DNA from: Aphanomyces cochlioides
Taxonomy: Eukaryota; Oomycota; Saprolegniomycetes; Saprolegniales; Verrucalvaceae
NCBI GenBank assembly: GCA_019828595.1
Contig: JAHQRK010000004.1
Location: forward strand, 310,001-374,000
Direction of reading: 5' to 3'
Length of the DNA stretch: 64,000 nt
Shown here: positions 48,765-64,000 of the stretch, piece by piece
Layout of the letters: each line of letters opens with the position of its first letter
Position numbering within the stretch: position 1 is the stretch's first letter
Position numbers and translations under genes: made by a program
Notes under the pieces: generated by a model
The model's database searches: none
Seen by the model: the letters and a program-made list of their open reading frames with translations, nothing else
What the model was told of the DNA's origin: nothing

Positions 48765-51700
48765 TCAATGCGAGTCGATGGTCGAAATGACCGCGTCAAT
48801 GTCGACTTGTTCCTCTTCGAGTCGAGGACTTGGCTGCCAATTGTTGCGGAAGCTGAAGTTCTGTCCTTCCGCGTTGTACACTGGAAAGACTTTGCTCGTC
48901 GGGATCGGCGCGTCCACGCTGAGTCTTCCAAGGGGCGACGCATGCGTCGATGAGGGTCCAATGTGGAAAATCTCATCGAGCTTTTTATGGAAGCGATCCC
49001 TGAGTGATCCAAGTCAATTCTAGCCATGGAGCGCGCCAACTTGTCATACCTGTACGGCTTTGGCGGCATGGCGGAGATGCCCGCGGCGTCTTTGCGCATG
49101 AAGAACGTCTTGATGAATCGCTCGAGGCGCTTTTCCAGCGTCCACGTTTGCAGGATATCAATCATGCCAATGTAGAAATAGCCAGGACCGACGACGACTT
49201 CGGCCGCGCGCATGGCCGCGACTGACTGCTTCGCGACGGGTTTCGGCGCGGCAAATGATTCCTCAGCATCTGGCGCTGTCTTGGTCACGTGGAAGCGCAC
49301 TTCGACGATGCCAAGGAGCAAACTGTAGTCCATGATGCCTTGGTCGCAGAGGAAGTCGCTGTCTTTCTTGAGTTGCTCCAGCGTGCCTTGGTAGTCGCTC
49401 AGTCGCACCTTGGTCGTCAAGTCCATGTCCTTCAGAACGATGTTGGGCTCATGAAAACCGCCGCGACTTGGACACATATCGCGGCCGCCGCTTCGGAATG
49501 TCATGTTGCAATAGCTAAAGCAGCATGTGATGATGGAGGAGAGAGAGAGGATTGCATACCGGCATGTACATTCCTGGCCAGGCCGCGCTTTCTCGGCGTT
49601 GCGGTCGATCCAGGAGCCTTTGATGTCGTAGCGTTGATGGACAGCGTGCTGCTTGTCAAAGACGTTCTCCATCACGACAAAGAACGATTCCTACGACATG
49701 GTCATCGTCAATTCCTGCCGCTACTTGATCGCCTACTCGGCCGTAGAGATCCATGGAATAGCTGCCGAGGATCCGCGTGAGGAACGTCGCGGGGTTGGCG
49801 CCGATGTACGCGGCATACTTGTCGACGATGGAATTCAGGAAATGGCTCTCCCGCGCCGTCAAGCTCTTGACGATGTATGCGCCGTTGGACGTGAAGAACA
49901 TGAAGGAGCCGCTCGCGCCTTCACTGAGCTTCGGGATGCTGCAGTCGGTGAACGCGCGGATGAACTCGCGCTCGTCGACGCCAAAGAATTCGCGGATTTG
50001 GCAAAAGATGTCCGGCCGGAAGTCCATGAACTTGCAAGCTTGGCATGAGAAGAGCGAGTGCTCATTCTGCGGCGGATGCACCGTGAAGATGGACACTTCC
50101 GTGAGTTCCAGCGTTTGTCTAGATGGAGAAATGAGCGATCTACGTACGGCCAAAGAGCGCGACGCACCGCTTGTTGGCCACTTGGACCGCTTTCGTGATG
50201 CCGCGCGTCGTATAAAAGACGAGTTCCTTCAAGAGCGCGTAGTTTGTCTGCGCGCGGATCGCATCGTCGCGGTCATGGATCGTCTAGGAAGAAAGATCGT
50301 GAGGAAGAAGAGCGCGAGAGAGCATCATACGCGCGCCGACTGCTTGGAATCCTGGCCGGAAGCGCTGTATAAGATCCACAGGAAGAAGACGATGCTGCCG
50401 CGGAACGAAAGCAAGAAGCCAAAGAGTTCCTTCAGCACTTCGTCGTAGTCGGCAAGCCAGTACGTGACGTAGATGCCCCAGAGGAGCAGCCAGTAGACGC
50501 AGAAAGCGACGGCCGTGACGAATCCTTCCCGGAGTAAAGCGCGTCGATGTTCCAGCGTCGCTTCAATGCCGACGCGGAAGCGTTGCGCCGACACTGCGCA
50601 GACGTAAATGTTGGTACTGAGGAACAAGACGACGGGAGCGACGATGAAGATCCAAATGCCAGCGTCAAAGACAAAGAACTCGCCCGTCGCGAGTCCGCTG
50701 CACTTGACCCAGCAGAAGTCGCCGACGGAAACGCCGTAGAACGACGAACTGCTGAGCATGACTCCGCCCGCGACAAGGCCCAAGCCATGGGAGAACAATT
50801 GGTACTTGCTCCGATTCCGCCGCGGCGATGTGAATGGATCGTTGAGCTAGAGGAGAGCGAGATGAGAGAGAGGATGGACGAGGACGCACCAGCGCAAAGA
50901 GATCGATCGCCATGCAGAATTCCCACGTCACGGACGTCATGATGCAGTATTCCCGCGCCGCCGAGATCTACAGGATGACAACGTGAGGCGGAGATTGATC
51001 GATGGAGAACGAACGAATTGGCAGGACGTGTTGAGCTCCGAGCCGATGGTCCAGTCGTTCCAGAGCGGCTCGAGCAGGAAGGAGATCGCGAGGAGCAAGT
51101 CCATGATGCTACACAAAAGTCGATCGTGCGGTGGAGAGAGCGCGCGTACCTGCGATTCAAGAGGAGAATGTTGGAGTGCCGGCGACATCCAGGGCTGGAA
51201 ATGTACGAGATGGAGACGACGCACGACATGACGAGTGTCCCGAGAGAGCCGAGGAGAACGCCCGATGGGATCTTGACGACCTGCCGCGTTTTATGGCGCA
51301 GCGCCACGGCGCAGACGACCAACGCGACGGAGAAGAGCGCCGCAGAGACGGCAATGACAGTCTTCCCGCCAAAGAGACGACCGTTGTCGAAGAGAAGCAA
51401 GTAAAACTCTTTCATGCCGCGGGAAGGCGGTCGCCGGGTCGCGGGAATCGTCTGAATATTACCTTCGAGCTTCCCGAGCGCCGCAGAGGATTCGTCGTTC
51501 GTTAGACGATGCACGGCCGTCGCTATCGGCGAGTCTGACGATCTTTCAGAACAGTCGTCAGTCGCTGGGAAGAGCACGTTGATGTCCTCGACAGACGCTG
51601 CTCTTGGCGTGGTTGTACCATTGACGCGGCGTTCGGAATCCACGTCACTGATGGCGACGAGAGAGCTCGACTTGCCCCAGAGGTCGGTGAGTGTCGATTG

Positions 51701-57053: not shown

Positions 57054-57713
57054 TTATGTCAAGATGGCCTTGAATTCTTCAAATTCGATCTCGCCGCTCT
57101 GGTCGACATCCAACTTGTTTATCATTTCCTACTTGGATTGTCCGTGGACGCGCTCCATAAAGTCGACTTGCCTCAATATTGATGGTCAATCCAAAGTCCA
57201 CTTTGATGATTTTCACAAGAGTGTCGCGCTTGACGACGCCAGTTTTATCAGGCTTGCCGCCGCACGCCACGAACGCGTCAACTGCAGACAGCATGAAGAA
57301 TTCAATCCAACCGCAACTTACTCATGTCGCTTTCGTCGTTGTACAACGCGGCTCTGTCTTTTTGGTTGTCAATGACTTGTAGGAATTCCGCAAAGTCTAC
57401 AACCTGAATTAAAGATAAAAGACGATGGTCGTACCGATAGCACCGCTCATATCTTCGTCGACTTCACTGATCATCTGGAACAGCTCTTCTTCCGTGGGTT
57501 GTTGACCCATCGCTGTCGAAAATGGATGAGATGTTTACGAGATGCTGAAAATACCTTCCAGAACTTGGCGTAGCTCCCACACGTCAATGGTTCCGCTTCT
57601 GTACGCTGCCATGACGATCTCTCTTGACCATTCTCATTGTACCTGTCTTTATCAAAGGCAAGGAATGCTTCCCGGCACGCGTCGATTTCATCTTGAGCTA
57701 ATACCATGTTCAA
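57054..57713 (-). CDS. Calmodulin-like EF-hand protein
   Basis: Six exons (57,643-57,713, 57,555-57,598, 57,435-57,512, 57,322-57,396, 57,172-57,281, 57,054-57,128) give 148 or 150 residues, depending on whether the ATG at 57,707 or 57,713 is used. Length and layout are those of calmodulin. EF-hand loops 1 (FDKDRSGTIDVWEL), 2 (VDEDMSGAIDFAEF) and 4 (LDVDQSGEIEFEEF) have the Asp/Glu ligands for calcium. Loop 3 (CGGKPDKTGVVKRDTL) lacks them. It is too different from true calmodulin to be that, and centrin-like or axonemal light-chain roles are possible. The fifth intron (57,129-57,171) has a GC donor instead of GT, while splicing it as GC..AG restores the fourth EF-hand exactly. Confidence 0.85.
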
Positions 57714-57811: not shown

Positions 57812-60800
57812 CTAGTCTAGTTTATGCTTTGGTGGAGGAATATGAATCGCATTAGATCCTGTAAGCTTGATCAACGTCTCTGGCGAGCGCAGCATTCGAA
57901 CCAAAGTTTCGTACAGGCGACCCTCATCCTAAATTCATACAATTAATATCAACCGCGCAGTTTTGATCGATTACCTTCAAATGGCCGATATATTCTTCCT
58001 TTCGAGCGATGTAAATACCCTACGAGAGGAAAGACTTTAGTTGCAGTGATGTGGACGAGCATACCTCGACTAGATCCAAGAGATCGTTTGGGTTGGGCAA
58101 TTCATTGTACAAAACTTTGTACATTTCACCTCGGAGCATTTCTTTAAAGAAAGCCCCAACTGTGAAAACCACGAAAATGTACGCAGCAGTCAAACCATAC
58201 GAGCCGATACCAAGTTTAGTCAAGCCAGAAACGATATTGTCCGAGACAGTGATCAAACAGAACCCATCCTTGTCTTCAGGGCTTTCCTGACAGTTGACTG
58301 GAAGTCCATCATTTTCGCCCGGACGATTGGAAGCATCAGTTGAATTGATAACCCACCAACTCACGCCGTTTTCGATATTTCGCTGGATTGACATATCTCT
58401 CTTCGCATAGTTAGTTCGAGGGGTCACCGCAGATGAGGCAGGGACTTTTAACACAGGATTGAAAAAGTTTTTAATCCGAATTGCGTTCGGGGCGACAATA
58501 ATGTCATCAGAAGCAAGAGATACAGAAGTGAGGTTTGAGCCTAATGCAGTTGCCATCGACGCGTTTGAACCGAGGATAGAAGATGTGCTTGCTGGGGTCG
58601 CTGCAGCCACATTTGTGCCTTGCACTAAAGAAATCAAAGATGTTCGATCCAAAGCCGTCAGACTTTGTTCGAACGACTTTGTAACATCTTGATTTCCTTG
58701 AGGCCCATCTCTTGAGAACGAGACACGCAAGCTCCACTTGAGACTTTCATTTGATCGAAGGCGATTGACGAGTTCACGACGTAGTGGTGGGGAGCTAATC
58801 CAGAGGTCCTTGGAATACGACGAGAACGAATTCTTCTGGATGACTGTGTCGGTACTCTTGATTTTTAATCCACCATAACGTGGCCCATTAGAGTCCCCAT
58901 TGCTATAGAATTCCTGCAAAGTTCCATCTTCTTGAACCAAGCCAAATTTAACCGTGACAGTCTTGACGGCATTTTCCTGTGTCGAAGGATTCAAACTCGA
59001 AAACATTGCCAATGGAGCAATCACGCAGAATAACAGCACAAATAGAATGAACCCGCCAGTCAGGAATTTCTTGTAGACAGGATGACGCTTGTTTCCCTTC
59101 AAGTAGACGGCATCTCGAATACGCTCATCCATTTCATGGCGGACGAGAAATAAAGTGGCCGCAGTTTCTTCGAGCAACAGCCACATGTCCTTATTCAGCG
59201 CCGTCTTTGAGCACATCCAGTCAAGTAAACATCGGATTTCAAAGGCAAATGGAATAGCCATGAAGACTTTAAAGCCTTTACCATAAAGCTCATGAGTCCA
59301 TGACTGTTCTTCAATGGATTTCTTGTTATGGTGATTACTTCGGAACACCTGATAGCCAAACTTAATCTGGTATGAACTGATCCAAAGGTAAATGCAATGC
59401 AAGACATAAAATCCTTGTAAACCGACTCGAGATTGGAAATATGATTTGCTGGACAGAGGAAGCATCAACCAAAGGCCTAAATGCACTCCAATCAACACAG
59501 TGAAATGGAGAGCCACTTTAATTCGGAGCGAACTGCAGATGAAGGCAGCTCGATCCCATATAATTATGATCAGTTCAAAGAAGATAATCAAAACCATATA
59601 GCCATTCAGCATAGAATCACTCAAATTGATTGAAAAGGTTTCAGAATCGTCCACGGGTTCCCCAAAATATTTGAAAAAGAGGAATGCATAAATGATACAA
59701 ATGAAGGGAATTAATAGCATGGCAGCAAAGTAATCGCGACCAGGTTTCGAACACGTCATCGCTTCGCTGATGTCTTTATCCCAATGTTCAGGTACTGTAG
59801 GCCATAAACGAGCAAAGAAAGCCATTGTTGATGGAAAGGTACTCTCCAGCCAAATCATGACTTTGTTTGGTTTTTTGGGGATTGTCGGTACTTGGTCAAC
59901 AAACTCGAGCAATGGCTGGGTCTCATTTTGCTCTAATTGACCGCTAGATCCTTCTCGCAATGAACGTGGCGACTCTGACATCATAGAGGCTCGAGGGGAG
60001 GCAGACGTACGAGACTGTGCACGCAGTAACGCTTCACGAGGAGATATCGCTCTAGGATCGTTGACTTGTGTTTCTTCTTCGTCGCTATGAGCATTGTGAG
60101 TGGAATCATTCTGAGATCCGCTCCAATGTTGTTCTCTAGATAGCTGGGTCTGCAAGAGTGCTTCCCTGGGCGATGTAACTTGCCGGGGGTGATCGTCATC
60201 CCTGGCAACGTCGTCTGGTGTGCCTTCAAAAGCCACAGCTTTCGAAAGAGCAGCAGGGCGTGATTGTGCCATTTCTCGAACATGAAAATCACCAGGAGTG
60301 GCTTTAACTGTGTCGTCTTTGTGGCGTGCCAAAAAGGCAGCCACATCATACAATTCAGGATCGTCCAAGGAGTCTCTTGACATAACAGTGGTGCGCTGAC
60401 GGTCCAACAATTGAGAAGAATCTTCCTCTGTGTCAACATTTAGCCATAGACCACGCAATTGAAGTTCTCGACGGTGAAACAAGATACTCAAAATGACAAC
60501 AAAGTTCCAAGCAACACCTTTCCACATCGTATCCACCAGTGGATTTGCAATGCCGTCAAACTTGTACAAACCAAAGTACACCATGGGCTGAATTGGGTTT
60601 CGATTTTTCAGCCGAAATAATGTATCTGGGCACCAAGGTTGCATACTAGAAGACTTGAGGTCAAATATAAATTCATAATAAATACCTGGGGTATAAGACA
60701 CTATCACTGTTAATGTTTTGGCAGAAGACAGGAAGTTGGAAGAAATATCGAGCAAATACAACCCAAAATGACTACACATAAAGAAATGAGAATGCAACTT

Positions 60801-63800
60801 TGCTGAATAAACATACGTATCGCATGATTAAGTTCCAAGCGTAAGAGTGCGGACGTGGATTTTCCAGCAATAAGAAACCGAAGGCTGCAAACACGTATAC
60901 CATATTCAGAATATCCCCCTAGGACAAATTTATACCCAAATCAAATGTTAAAACATACTTGGGACACAAAGCTGCAAAAAAAGACGATGCAGCACAAATT
61001 ACGCGTGTGACTTCGAAGTGAATTCAACATCACAGTGAAAAGCTCGAACCACGATGGTAATTGCTCGTCATCCTCTTCATAAATTTGTTCTTCGTGACGC
61101 AAAGATATATCTTGCAACGTCTAGAATTTGAATAAGACTGTGTGACTATTTCAGTCGTCGACTTACGTAGAAAAAGTTGTAAAATGCAAGATATGCCAAT
61201 CCGACAAAATTCTTCGATTCACTCTGTTCTTCGTCTTCAGCATCATTCAGCCAGCTTTCATCGCCCGTAACACTGCTCCATTCACTTCTTGGTCCGTTAA
61301 AATTCTCGTCTTCGTCGTCAAACATAGATGATTCTGGGATCGGGGGAAGACTCATGCCATTGGCATCCAAGTATTCCTCCAGACGTAGCCCGATAGCATG
61401 ACGAGGAACCAATTGACTCAAGTCGGCAACCCATTGGTTAAATTGTTGTTGTGTTTCAAGCAGAACCGTGTAGCGCACTTGATGCGAATTACGCGCAGTG
61501 GCGACGATATGGAGTGCGTACATTTCGTCGGACATTTCGTTAGCTCGATAGGTTTGTTCCGATAAATCAAACACTGATACATCCATCGTGAGAAAAGATG
61601 TCTTCATGCGCTTGCGCTTCTTCATGCTTCGGTGTTTCAAAGCGAGAGCCTCATTTTTGTACCATACAAACGCATGACTGTCAACAACGGCATATCGAGG
61701 CAACTCCTTTGGCGTCCACAATTTCGAATACCACGGCTGTGGCCAGCGGCATTTTCTGTAATATACCCAACCAGCTACGCAGGTTCCTCCCCAGTTCAGA
61801 GGGAAAGTTTGAATTGGAACACTTGGGGCACTGAAAGGGCCTTCTCCCATTCTTGACGAAGCTGCAACTTTAAATTGATAAGTTGTACCAGGGCGCAATC
61901 CGTCGACAACAAATCTAGTTCCTAGAGAGGCTTTCACTTCGATTGGATACGAATAATCTCCAAGGAGTGTGGTCGGAGGGTAAACCTAAACGAAAGTATG
62001 AATGTTGAGACGAATGAAAAGCATCTTCTGACCTGGCGTGTGATAGTGTAACTACGAATGCGATGTAGAGGAGATTCAGGTGCACTCCAAACTAATGTGA
62101 CAGAATTTTGCGTCGTTTCTTCTGTAATAATTGTTGGAGGTTGAGGAGCCGACGGAGGCAAGCTGTAGTTGAGCCCCGAAGCAATATCCATCATTTCTTC
62201 CACTTTATTTACCATTCGAGATATAATAGACTTCAAACGCAAGATAGCTGCTTGTTTCTCTTGCTTCAGAGCTTGCCAGCGTTCAAGGCGATCCATTAAC
62301 ACCTAAGCAACATCAATGTTTGAAATTAGGTTCCCCTACCTCCTCGTGAAGGGCACGACAGCGCTTTTGACTTTGGTCACTTTCCCGACTGGTAAAAGCA
62401 CGGACATAATCGTACAATGGAGATTGATAGATCAACTCTTGGATGTTAATCATCCAAAATATGACGATTGACAACACGGGGACAGTTGCTCCCACGTCTG
62501 GAGCACTGGGATAATTCTTTGGGAATTTGTTGAGGTCCAAAACGGCGGGAGCTGAGAGGCAAACTTTTCCATTAACGTGCGTTCCGAGGGTGCAAAACTC
62601 TGTGGGATTACCAAACACTGGTATTTGGAAGAGTACAAGAAGAAACATGTAGCCCCACGAAAACTCCCGCAGTCTTGAAAGCATTTTACTCTCTGGCGAG
62701 TCAACGTCATTCACATAAACCAGCATATAAATTGCAAAGGCCAAATAAATGCCAGATGCAATGCCAGATCGAATGCATCCCGAGACAAATACCATAATCA
62801 ACAAAACAAAAACCCAGTAGTTCATGACCATAAAGACAAGAAGACGCCAGGGCATTTGGTTTTCTTTCGTATTTGTTGTGAAATCATTTGCATCCCCTGG
62901 CACAACAGATGCAGTCAAGGTGTCTCTGCAATTTTGACCCGAGTCAGTCTCACGAGCGGCAAATTCTGCAGCCATTGTTCGCTTTTCAATTTCCAGGTAG
63001 TACGGTTTTGCACCTGGGATCATGAAGACAAAAAGAATGCAACAATAGTCACTAAATAAGCCCATAGGGTGCTGAAAGTTTAGTGCCAAGTATTCAGCGT
63101 ATTCATCGTGATGTTCAAGCCATTTCCACGGCACCGTTGTGTTACGCGGCCAGTCAAGGAAGGGAGGAAACCAAAGCATGATAAAGTATTGGGTGACACA
63201 AACAAATAACAACATGATGGCCAAGTAATTCCAATTGCGGCAAACTGTAATAGGATGAGATACCATGATCCATCGAACCACCAACAAGTACATGACACTA
63301 ATGATGTTCAAGTGGATAAACGCAGAGATCAACAGCATAAGCATTGTCAGTGTCACTGAGCCTTCAGAAGCAAAGCGAATAAGGAAGTCTTGAACTGACT
63401 TCAGGAAAGGGGTGTCTTCGCTCATGTTGCTACTGCTGGCATGCCATTCGCTGGGCTTTCTTGGCCGTTGTTTCTTAGTATTTGGCTTTGCATCTTTTTC
63501 TGGATCCCAGAATTGCGATGCACGAGTTACTAGGCATAGTAACATGACAACCATGTGTTCCCACGTCATGGACCAAATAGATGAGTGATAATAGTTTCCA
63601 CCGTTTGCCGTATCGGTATTGTTAGATTTGCCCTCCATTAGTTCAGCCATTGTCTTGTTTACACGAGCTAGACCAATCCAACTAGCGCTGTCTTCAAATG
63701 ATTTCGCGTGTTCAGGGCCAAATAGCAATTCGAGCCTATCTGGTTGCAAAGAACGAAATTGGAAAGCATATAGACACAAAATAAAAAACGATGAGAGCCA

Positions 63801-64000
63801 AAAGAGAGATTTCCATGAGCCCGTCCACTTTGGTTTGAAGAGCGTCGTAATAAGAATGGTCAAGTAGGTTACATTGAAGGCGTTGATGTTTCTGCACACA
63901 ATTGCCATGTTGAAAACCAAGAGTACAATAGGGCTGTTCACAAAGACCATTCGTTTTAACTCATTCACAATGACGATAATTGCGTCGATAAATCGACTTC
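57812..64000 (-). CDS. Piezo mechanosensitive ion channel with inserted FN3 and PH-like domains (partial)
   Basis: The window holds nine exons: 62,340-64,000 (open at the window edge), 62,033-62,302, 61,167-61,985, 60,959-61,120, 60,817-60,918, 60,686-60,771, 58,065-60,645, 57,975-58,019 and 57,812-57,928. They add to 1,946 residues plus stop in one frame. Piezo proteins are large trimeric cation channels opened by membrane tension. The N-terminal part has many membrane helices. The C-terminal part has the Piezo pore module, including FWVVFARYFFQLPVFCQ, MVYFGLYKFDGIANP, a large extracellular cap, and the end RLYETLVRMLRSPETLIKLT, a Piezo hallmark. Between the two, at about residues 560-840, lie a helical segment, a fibronectin type III domain and a PH-like domain, which standard Piezos lack. 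The real N-terminus and perhaps several hundred residues lie beyond 64,000. Confidence 0.92.
61400..62157 (-). other. FN3 and PH-like domain insertion within Piezo
   Basis: FN3, about 61,805-62,157 with intron 61,986-62,032: PSAPQPPTIITEETTQNSVT, then LVWSAPESPLHRIRSYTITR, and LRPGTTYQFKVAASSRMGEG, PFSAPSVPIQTF. This is the complete strand pattern, with the core Trp and the Tyr-x-Phe-x-Val. PH-like, about 61,400-61,800: VAGWVYYRKCRWPQPWYSKL, WTPKELPRYAVVDSHAFVWY, FDLSEQTYRANEMSDEMYAL, and at the end LETQQQFNQWVADLSQL with the helix Trp typical of PH domains. Both sit in a region without membrane helices, so they should face the cytoplasm. Confidence 0.78.

Follow-up and report, generated by a model that had tools for sequence, protein, structure and literature searches.

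A Piezo gene of Aphanomyces cochlioides with predicted FN3 and PH domains in the linker between blade units THU7 and THU8

How the beam of a Piezo channel passes blade movement on to the pore is, to our knowledge, still debated. The DNA analyzed here, a stretch of 64,000 nucleotides that we call the window (positions 310001 to 374000 of contig C34, in a genome of 76.2 Mb and 94 contigs), raises a question that touches on this point: does its Piezo gene carry fibronectin type III (FN3) and PH domains next to a beam, and what could they do there? If a Piezo lineage found in nature has compact domains in this linker that can be separated, the contribution of the linker becomes open to direct testing. 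An oomycete FN3-PH Piezo would also give molecular access to how oomycetes sense force. Many of these organisms infect plants or fish, and mechanical stimuli have been called critical for their zoospore release and encystment (PMC4820453).

The gene model and its domains

Exons were joined on the basis of reading frame and GT-AG borders, the 5' exons being taken from the DNA adjoining the window and the start codon being picked by eye. This gave a minus-strand gene of 15 exons and 14 GT-AG introns (37 to 47 bp) with a single open frame of 2881 residues. In window numbering, the frame spans 67056 to 57812, its start lying 3,056 bp past the window end (locus L005); exons 1 to 6 are beyond that end, and exons 7 to 15 fall at least partly within the window (57812 to 64000). 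The initial annotation had read these nine visible exons as one continuous spliced frame, which the complete frame bears out. The database protein P0002 is collinear with the model across all 15 exons; it is without the model's first 46 residues, differs by one 4-residue indel far outside the module, and, over the module, has 97% identity to the window protein. Two neighboring frames were observed by eye. A small minus-strand frame that starts about 105 bp past the Piezo stop (approximately 57471 to 57705; MVLAQDEIDACREAFLAFDKD) appears EF-hand calcium-binding-like, and a plus-strand frame upstream of the gene (7487 to 8770 of L005) appears heat-shock-factor-type DNA-binding-like.

Profile searches identified the product as a Piezo. 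The cap and C-terminal pore end, interrupted by introns (57857 to 58847, minus strand, as are all features of the gene), matched PF12166 directly on the genomic DNA, with E values of 2.4e-34 (58065 to 58847) and 5.0e-4 (57857 to 57928), and P0002 matched the same family with an E value of 4.8e-51. Pfam scanning of P0002 further returned THU9/anchor (PF24874, 1.3e-55), THU8 (PF23188, 9.2e-21, residues 1842 to 1989), and TM1-24 (PF24871, 2.3e-13), the latter two representing the repeated transmembrane units of the blade. Transferred by alignment, THU9 and the anchor lie approximately at 58998 to 59738 and THU8 at 60444 to 61012 (residues ~1888 to 2035, with introns inside). By family membership, the protein is a putative mechanically gated trimeric cation channel.

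Upstream of THU8, the order along the protein is THU7, a predicted 65-residue helix, FN3, PH, and an acidic linker. The in-window part of exon 7 (62340 to 64000) codes for blade helices up to THU7 and for about the first 24 residues of the helix, which comprises residues 1465 to 1529 (62180 to 62411) and is split by the intron at 62339 to 62303. The FN3 domain (residues 1535 to 1641; 61797 to 62164) is split by the intron at 62032 to 61986, and the PH domain (residues 1644 to 1775; 61395 to 61790) is contained in a single exon, in good agreement with the initial annotation, which had placed an FN3-PH module at 61400 to 62157. The acidic linker (residues 1776 to 1836; 61212 to 61394) contains 18 D/E against 3 K/R residues and harbors the motif SEWSSVTGDES. 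No hydrophobic stretch was found in residues 1464 to 1836, and by analogy with animal Piezo the whole THU7-THU8 linker would be cytosolic.

What precedes the FN3 domain differs from the short coiled coil of the initial annotation. Structure prediction instead gave one single helix of 65 residues (residues 2 to 66 of the modeled P0002 fragment), in beam position and of about beam length: in human PIEZO1, the beam has 63 residues, and the order is THU7 (1117 to 1304), beam (1305 to 1367), plugs, latch, clasp (1515 to 1570), and THU8 from residue 1657 (PMC12308237). A profile of THU7 plus the helix, built from eight oomycete sequences, aligned with Drosophila Piezo in hhalign (E value of 2.9e-6, probability of 88%), the alignment reaching no further than some 28 residues into the helix. 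The profile of the helix matched 0 of the 102 listed Drosophila Piezo entries, and the THU7-helix profile retrieved no Piezo from the PDB at E ≤ 10, the only hit being VAMP2 (0.14). Judged by position, length, and this partial profile alignment, the helix is a candidate for the beam.

Both domain calls were examined by Pfam scanning and by structure prediction, two of the checks that the initial annotation had proposed, and both domains were matched and both folds predicted. All 13 module fragments scanned singly at E ≤ 1 matched fn3, the P0002 fragment scoring 50 bits for a cutoff of 25. The predicted structure is an FN3 beta-sandwich that starts about six residues past the helix end, and its structural matches include the intracellular FN3 domains of titin and myomesin. 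The PH family was likewise matched by 13/13 fragments scanned singly at E ≤ 1 and by 16/16 fragments in a further scan. Its scores lie close to the Pfam cutoff of 25.1 bits: the window's own PH scanned alone reached 25.2 bits, and in a longer P0002 fragment the score was 19.0 bits, under the cutoff. Whole-protein scans missed PH in P0002 and P0015 and placed it over the cutoff in P0010 and P0137. The fold predicted for the window's own exon shows seven strands and a C-terminal helix in the PH arrangement. Its best VIA-align match is a PH domain bound to inositol 1,3,4,5-tetrakisphosphate; the PH domains of kindlin and GRK2 also matched, as did a few PTB chains and a single CheF chain from a bacterium. 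Searched against PDB sequences, the PH profile gave a best E value of 0.064. Taken together, the fragment matches to both families, the score of the window's own PH, and the structural matches rule out that the FN3 and PH calls arose by chance.

Within the PH domain, we noted a conserved set of K/R residues and a basic stretch, KHRSMKKRKRMK (residues 1695 to 1706; 61602 to 61637). Of the 39 listed entries, 36 have a letter at the positions of R1675, R1697, and K1656; all 36 show arginine at the first two and lysine or arginine at the third (P0002 numbering: R1629, R1651, and K1610). The spacing K-xxx-R before strand 2 departs from the motif of lipid-binding PH domains, K-Xn-(K/R)-x-R.

Distribution and descent of the FN3-PH module

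The initial annotation had called for a survey of other oomycete Piezo proteins. Among the matches listed, we found 39 oomycete Piezo entries, some of them truncated models and several per species, from Aphanomyces, Achlya, Saprolegnia, Thraustotheca, Pythium, Globisporangium, Phytophthora, Nothophytophthora, Peronosclerospora, Plasmopara, Hyaloperonospora, and Bremia; P0002, P0009, and P0150 were counted among them by similarity. A Piezo search listed 120 of 208 proteins, comprising 18 oomycete and 102 Drosophila entries. Our own profiles detected FN3 in 37 and PH in all 39 of the listed oomycete entries at E < 1e-5, 13 of which match by construction since the profiles were built from fragments of these. 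Precomputed Pfam annotation gave fn3 in 37/39 and PH in 16/39. The two FN3 misses, which we kept as misses, are the Phytophthora kernoviae entries P0032 and P0151, whose models jump from mid-helix to mid-PH; an exon seems to have been skipped in these gene models. The module is thus not peculiar to one gene or genus, as both Piezo genes of this genome and the listed entries across oomycetes carry it. The initial annotation had further stated that no animal or plant Piezo is known with such domains. This holds for Drosophila, the only animals covered, where our FN3 and PH profiles matched 0 of the 102 listed entries at E < 0.01, many of these being isoforms of one gene per species. A first module search listed no Phytophthora and a later one did, indicating that these searches miss relatives. 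P0160, a Piezo of 4000 residues without fn3 or PH at E ≤ 1, is a possible outgroup.

The second Piezo gene of the genome (entry P0015) lies on contig C3 at ~724.6 to 734.3 kb (from ~4588 to the end of L007 and up to ~4400 of L008, the ends being approximate). It carries both FN3 and PH in the same domain order, with other exon borders around the module as judged by eye. We computed one tree for the module and one for the pore, each from 17 rows drawn from the 39 entries, with P0002 in place of the window protein. Both gave the same three clades, namely Peronosporales plus Pythium, Saprolegniales A, and Saprolegniales B, with small differences within clades; for the pore tree, a long branch was flagged, and its Saprolegniales A clade is supported by only 83/85. 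Module exchange between the paralogue clades is therefore not supported, as the two trees give the same clades, and the simplest account of the sequences would be one acquisition before these oomycete lineages split, followed by vertical descent. The SSVTG motif of the acidic linker is present in 30 of the 39 listed entries and absent in nine (P0013 to P0020 and P0150).

Database names already show the domains, e.g., "Fibronectin type-III domain-containing protein" for oomycete Piezo entries, and a Plasmopara entry is named "putative pleckstrin domain, fibronectin type III, immunoglobulin-like, Piezo family." The FN3-PH-Piezo pairing has thus been recorded by machine. It seems to have gone undiscussed in the literature: we came across no report of a Piezo with FN3 or PH in the literature searched, whose coverage leaves out most subscription journals. 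A review lists one Piezo homologue in Phytophthora infestans and three in Saprolegnia diclina; where it treats Piezo, it mentions no additional domains, and neither "fibronectin" nor "pleckstrin" appears in its text (PMC4820453).

A possible role in gating and lipid coupling

As a measure of conservation along the channel, we took the mean identity between pairs of rows in one alignment (A1). Of its 24 rows, 18 were used; the excluded ones are three from Drosophila, one from P. kernoviae, and two truncated rows from Aphanomyces. The pore-side half of the helix (P0002 residues 1456 to 1488) reached 79%, FN3 65%, and the F-G stretch of FN3 90%; PH and the acidic linker reached 42% and 32%. For comparison, THU9/anchor reached 50%, the cap 39%, and the C-terminal end 68%. 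This places the helix end and FN3 among the best-conserved parts of the aligned channel sequences, above THU9/anchor.

The THU7-THU8 linker, which here holds the helix, FN3, and PH, contains the beam, plug, latch, and clasp in human PIEZO1. Plug and latch gate the lateral portals of mammalian Piezo, and the beam is the lever that acts on them (PMC9256749). In the window protein, FN3 follows only about six residues past the helix, and both it and the helix end exceed THU9/anchor in conservation. FN3 is therefore a probable fixed element of the gating lever, at the end facing the pore, where it may replace plug and latch, whose loss is suggested by the sequences. Indeed, the helix-plus-module profile had no significant match in Drosophila Piezo, the best one (E value of 0.52) lying elsewhere in the protein. 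The PH domain has invariant basic residues, and its probable ligands are phosphoinositides of the inner leaflet, or else a protein; position and constraint would thus make it a lipid or protein tether, and its binding would set the strength with which blade movement reaches the pore. The model of the whole module (pTM of 0.50) does not fix the mutual arrangement of FN3, PH, and helix. Overall, we give an even chance to the reading that FN3 and PH, next to the predicted beam-like helix in the THU7-THU8 linker, couple the lever-like beam to the inner face of the membrane. A stronger version, in which oomycetes swapped plug and latch for an FN3-PH gate and the channel reads both tension and inner-leaflet phosphoinositides through a lipid sensor in its own lever arm, we consider doubtful. 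Steering of the channel by PIP2, raised in the initial annotation, is plausible; in mammals, PIP2 modulates Piezo1 with an effect whose direction varies among the studies cited (PMC12940486). The same annotation had speculated on a link to a PIP kinase encoded in the window. We found no support for it: the two stretches that match PF01504 (minus strand, within 49049 to 49931) are two of 31 PIP5K-matching stretches in the genome.

The module could also serve as a docking platform for cytosolic proteins, such as the cytoskeleton or signaling partners, without itself contributing directly to gating or lipid binding. Proteins are common ligands of PH domains, and the PH domains of kindlin and GRK2 are among the fold matches, as are the intracellular FN3 domains of titin and myomesin on the FN3 side. 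The lower identity of PH than of FN3 (42% versus 65%) equally fits a protein-binding or structural PH. However, the most conserved parts include the helix end and FN3, which are continuous with the lever, and the basic residues of PH are invariant, so that we regard docking alone as possible but rather unlikely. Coupling of the beam to the membrane is also to be weighed against a passive role, in which FN3-PH is an old insertion that fills the THU7-THU8 loop, with the plug-and-latch function residing elsewhere, e.g., in the acidic linker. FN3 may simply be a spacer: the distance from the beam end to THU8 is ~350 residues in Drosophila versus ~357 here, part of the human linker is an unstructured loop (PMC12308237), and the SSVTG motif is kept in most listed entries. 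A spacer would nevertheless not be expected to be conserved above THU9/anchor, nor to be retained in both paralogues, and we consider this reading improbable.

Finally, the architecture could be an artifact of annotation in which two adjoining genes were joined, a case to which we give next to no chance and which the initial annotation had also judged unlikely. A gene-fusion artifact is ruled out by the single frame across 15 exons, by the collinearity of P0002, and by the occurrence of FN3 within Piezo in 37 of the 39 listed entries, from many genomes. Moreover, the paralogue keeps the domain order despite its other exon borders. The data thus support a single Piezo gene with internal FN3 and PH domains.

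Compared to animal PIEZO1 and PIEZO2 and to Drosophila Piezo, the window protein has the THU9/anchor, cap, THU8, and TM1-24 families in common. With animal Piezo it further shares a long helix, here a predicted one, in beam position after THU7 and, going by the aligned beam end in Drosophila, the length of the linker; it differs in that the helix is followed by FN3 and PH, whereas plug, latch, and clasp are found in animals. Unlike the FN3 domains of titin, Robo3, and receptor phosphatases, its FN3 is present in a single copy, directly after a long helix in a predicted cytosolic channel loop. Similarly, its PH domain shares only 8 to 14% identity, in the aligned part, with the phosphoinositide-binding PH domains of DAPP1, beta-spectrin, ArhGAP9, and Btk, and, unlike these, sits within an ion channel. 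The other oomycete Piezo entries (among them those of Phytophthora, Pythium, Saprolegnia, Achlya, Plasmopara, and Bremia) show the same architecture, although Saprolegniales have two paralogue clades, and the clade B rows have a longer basic loop in PH and lack the acidic SSVTG motif.
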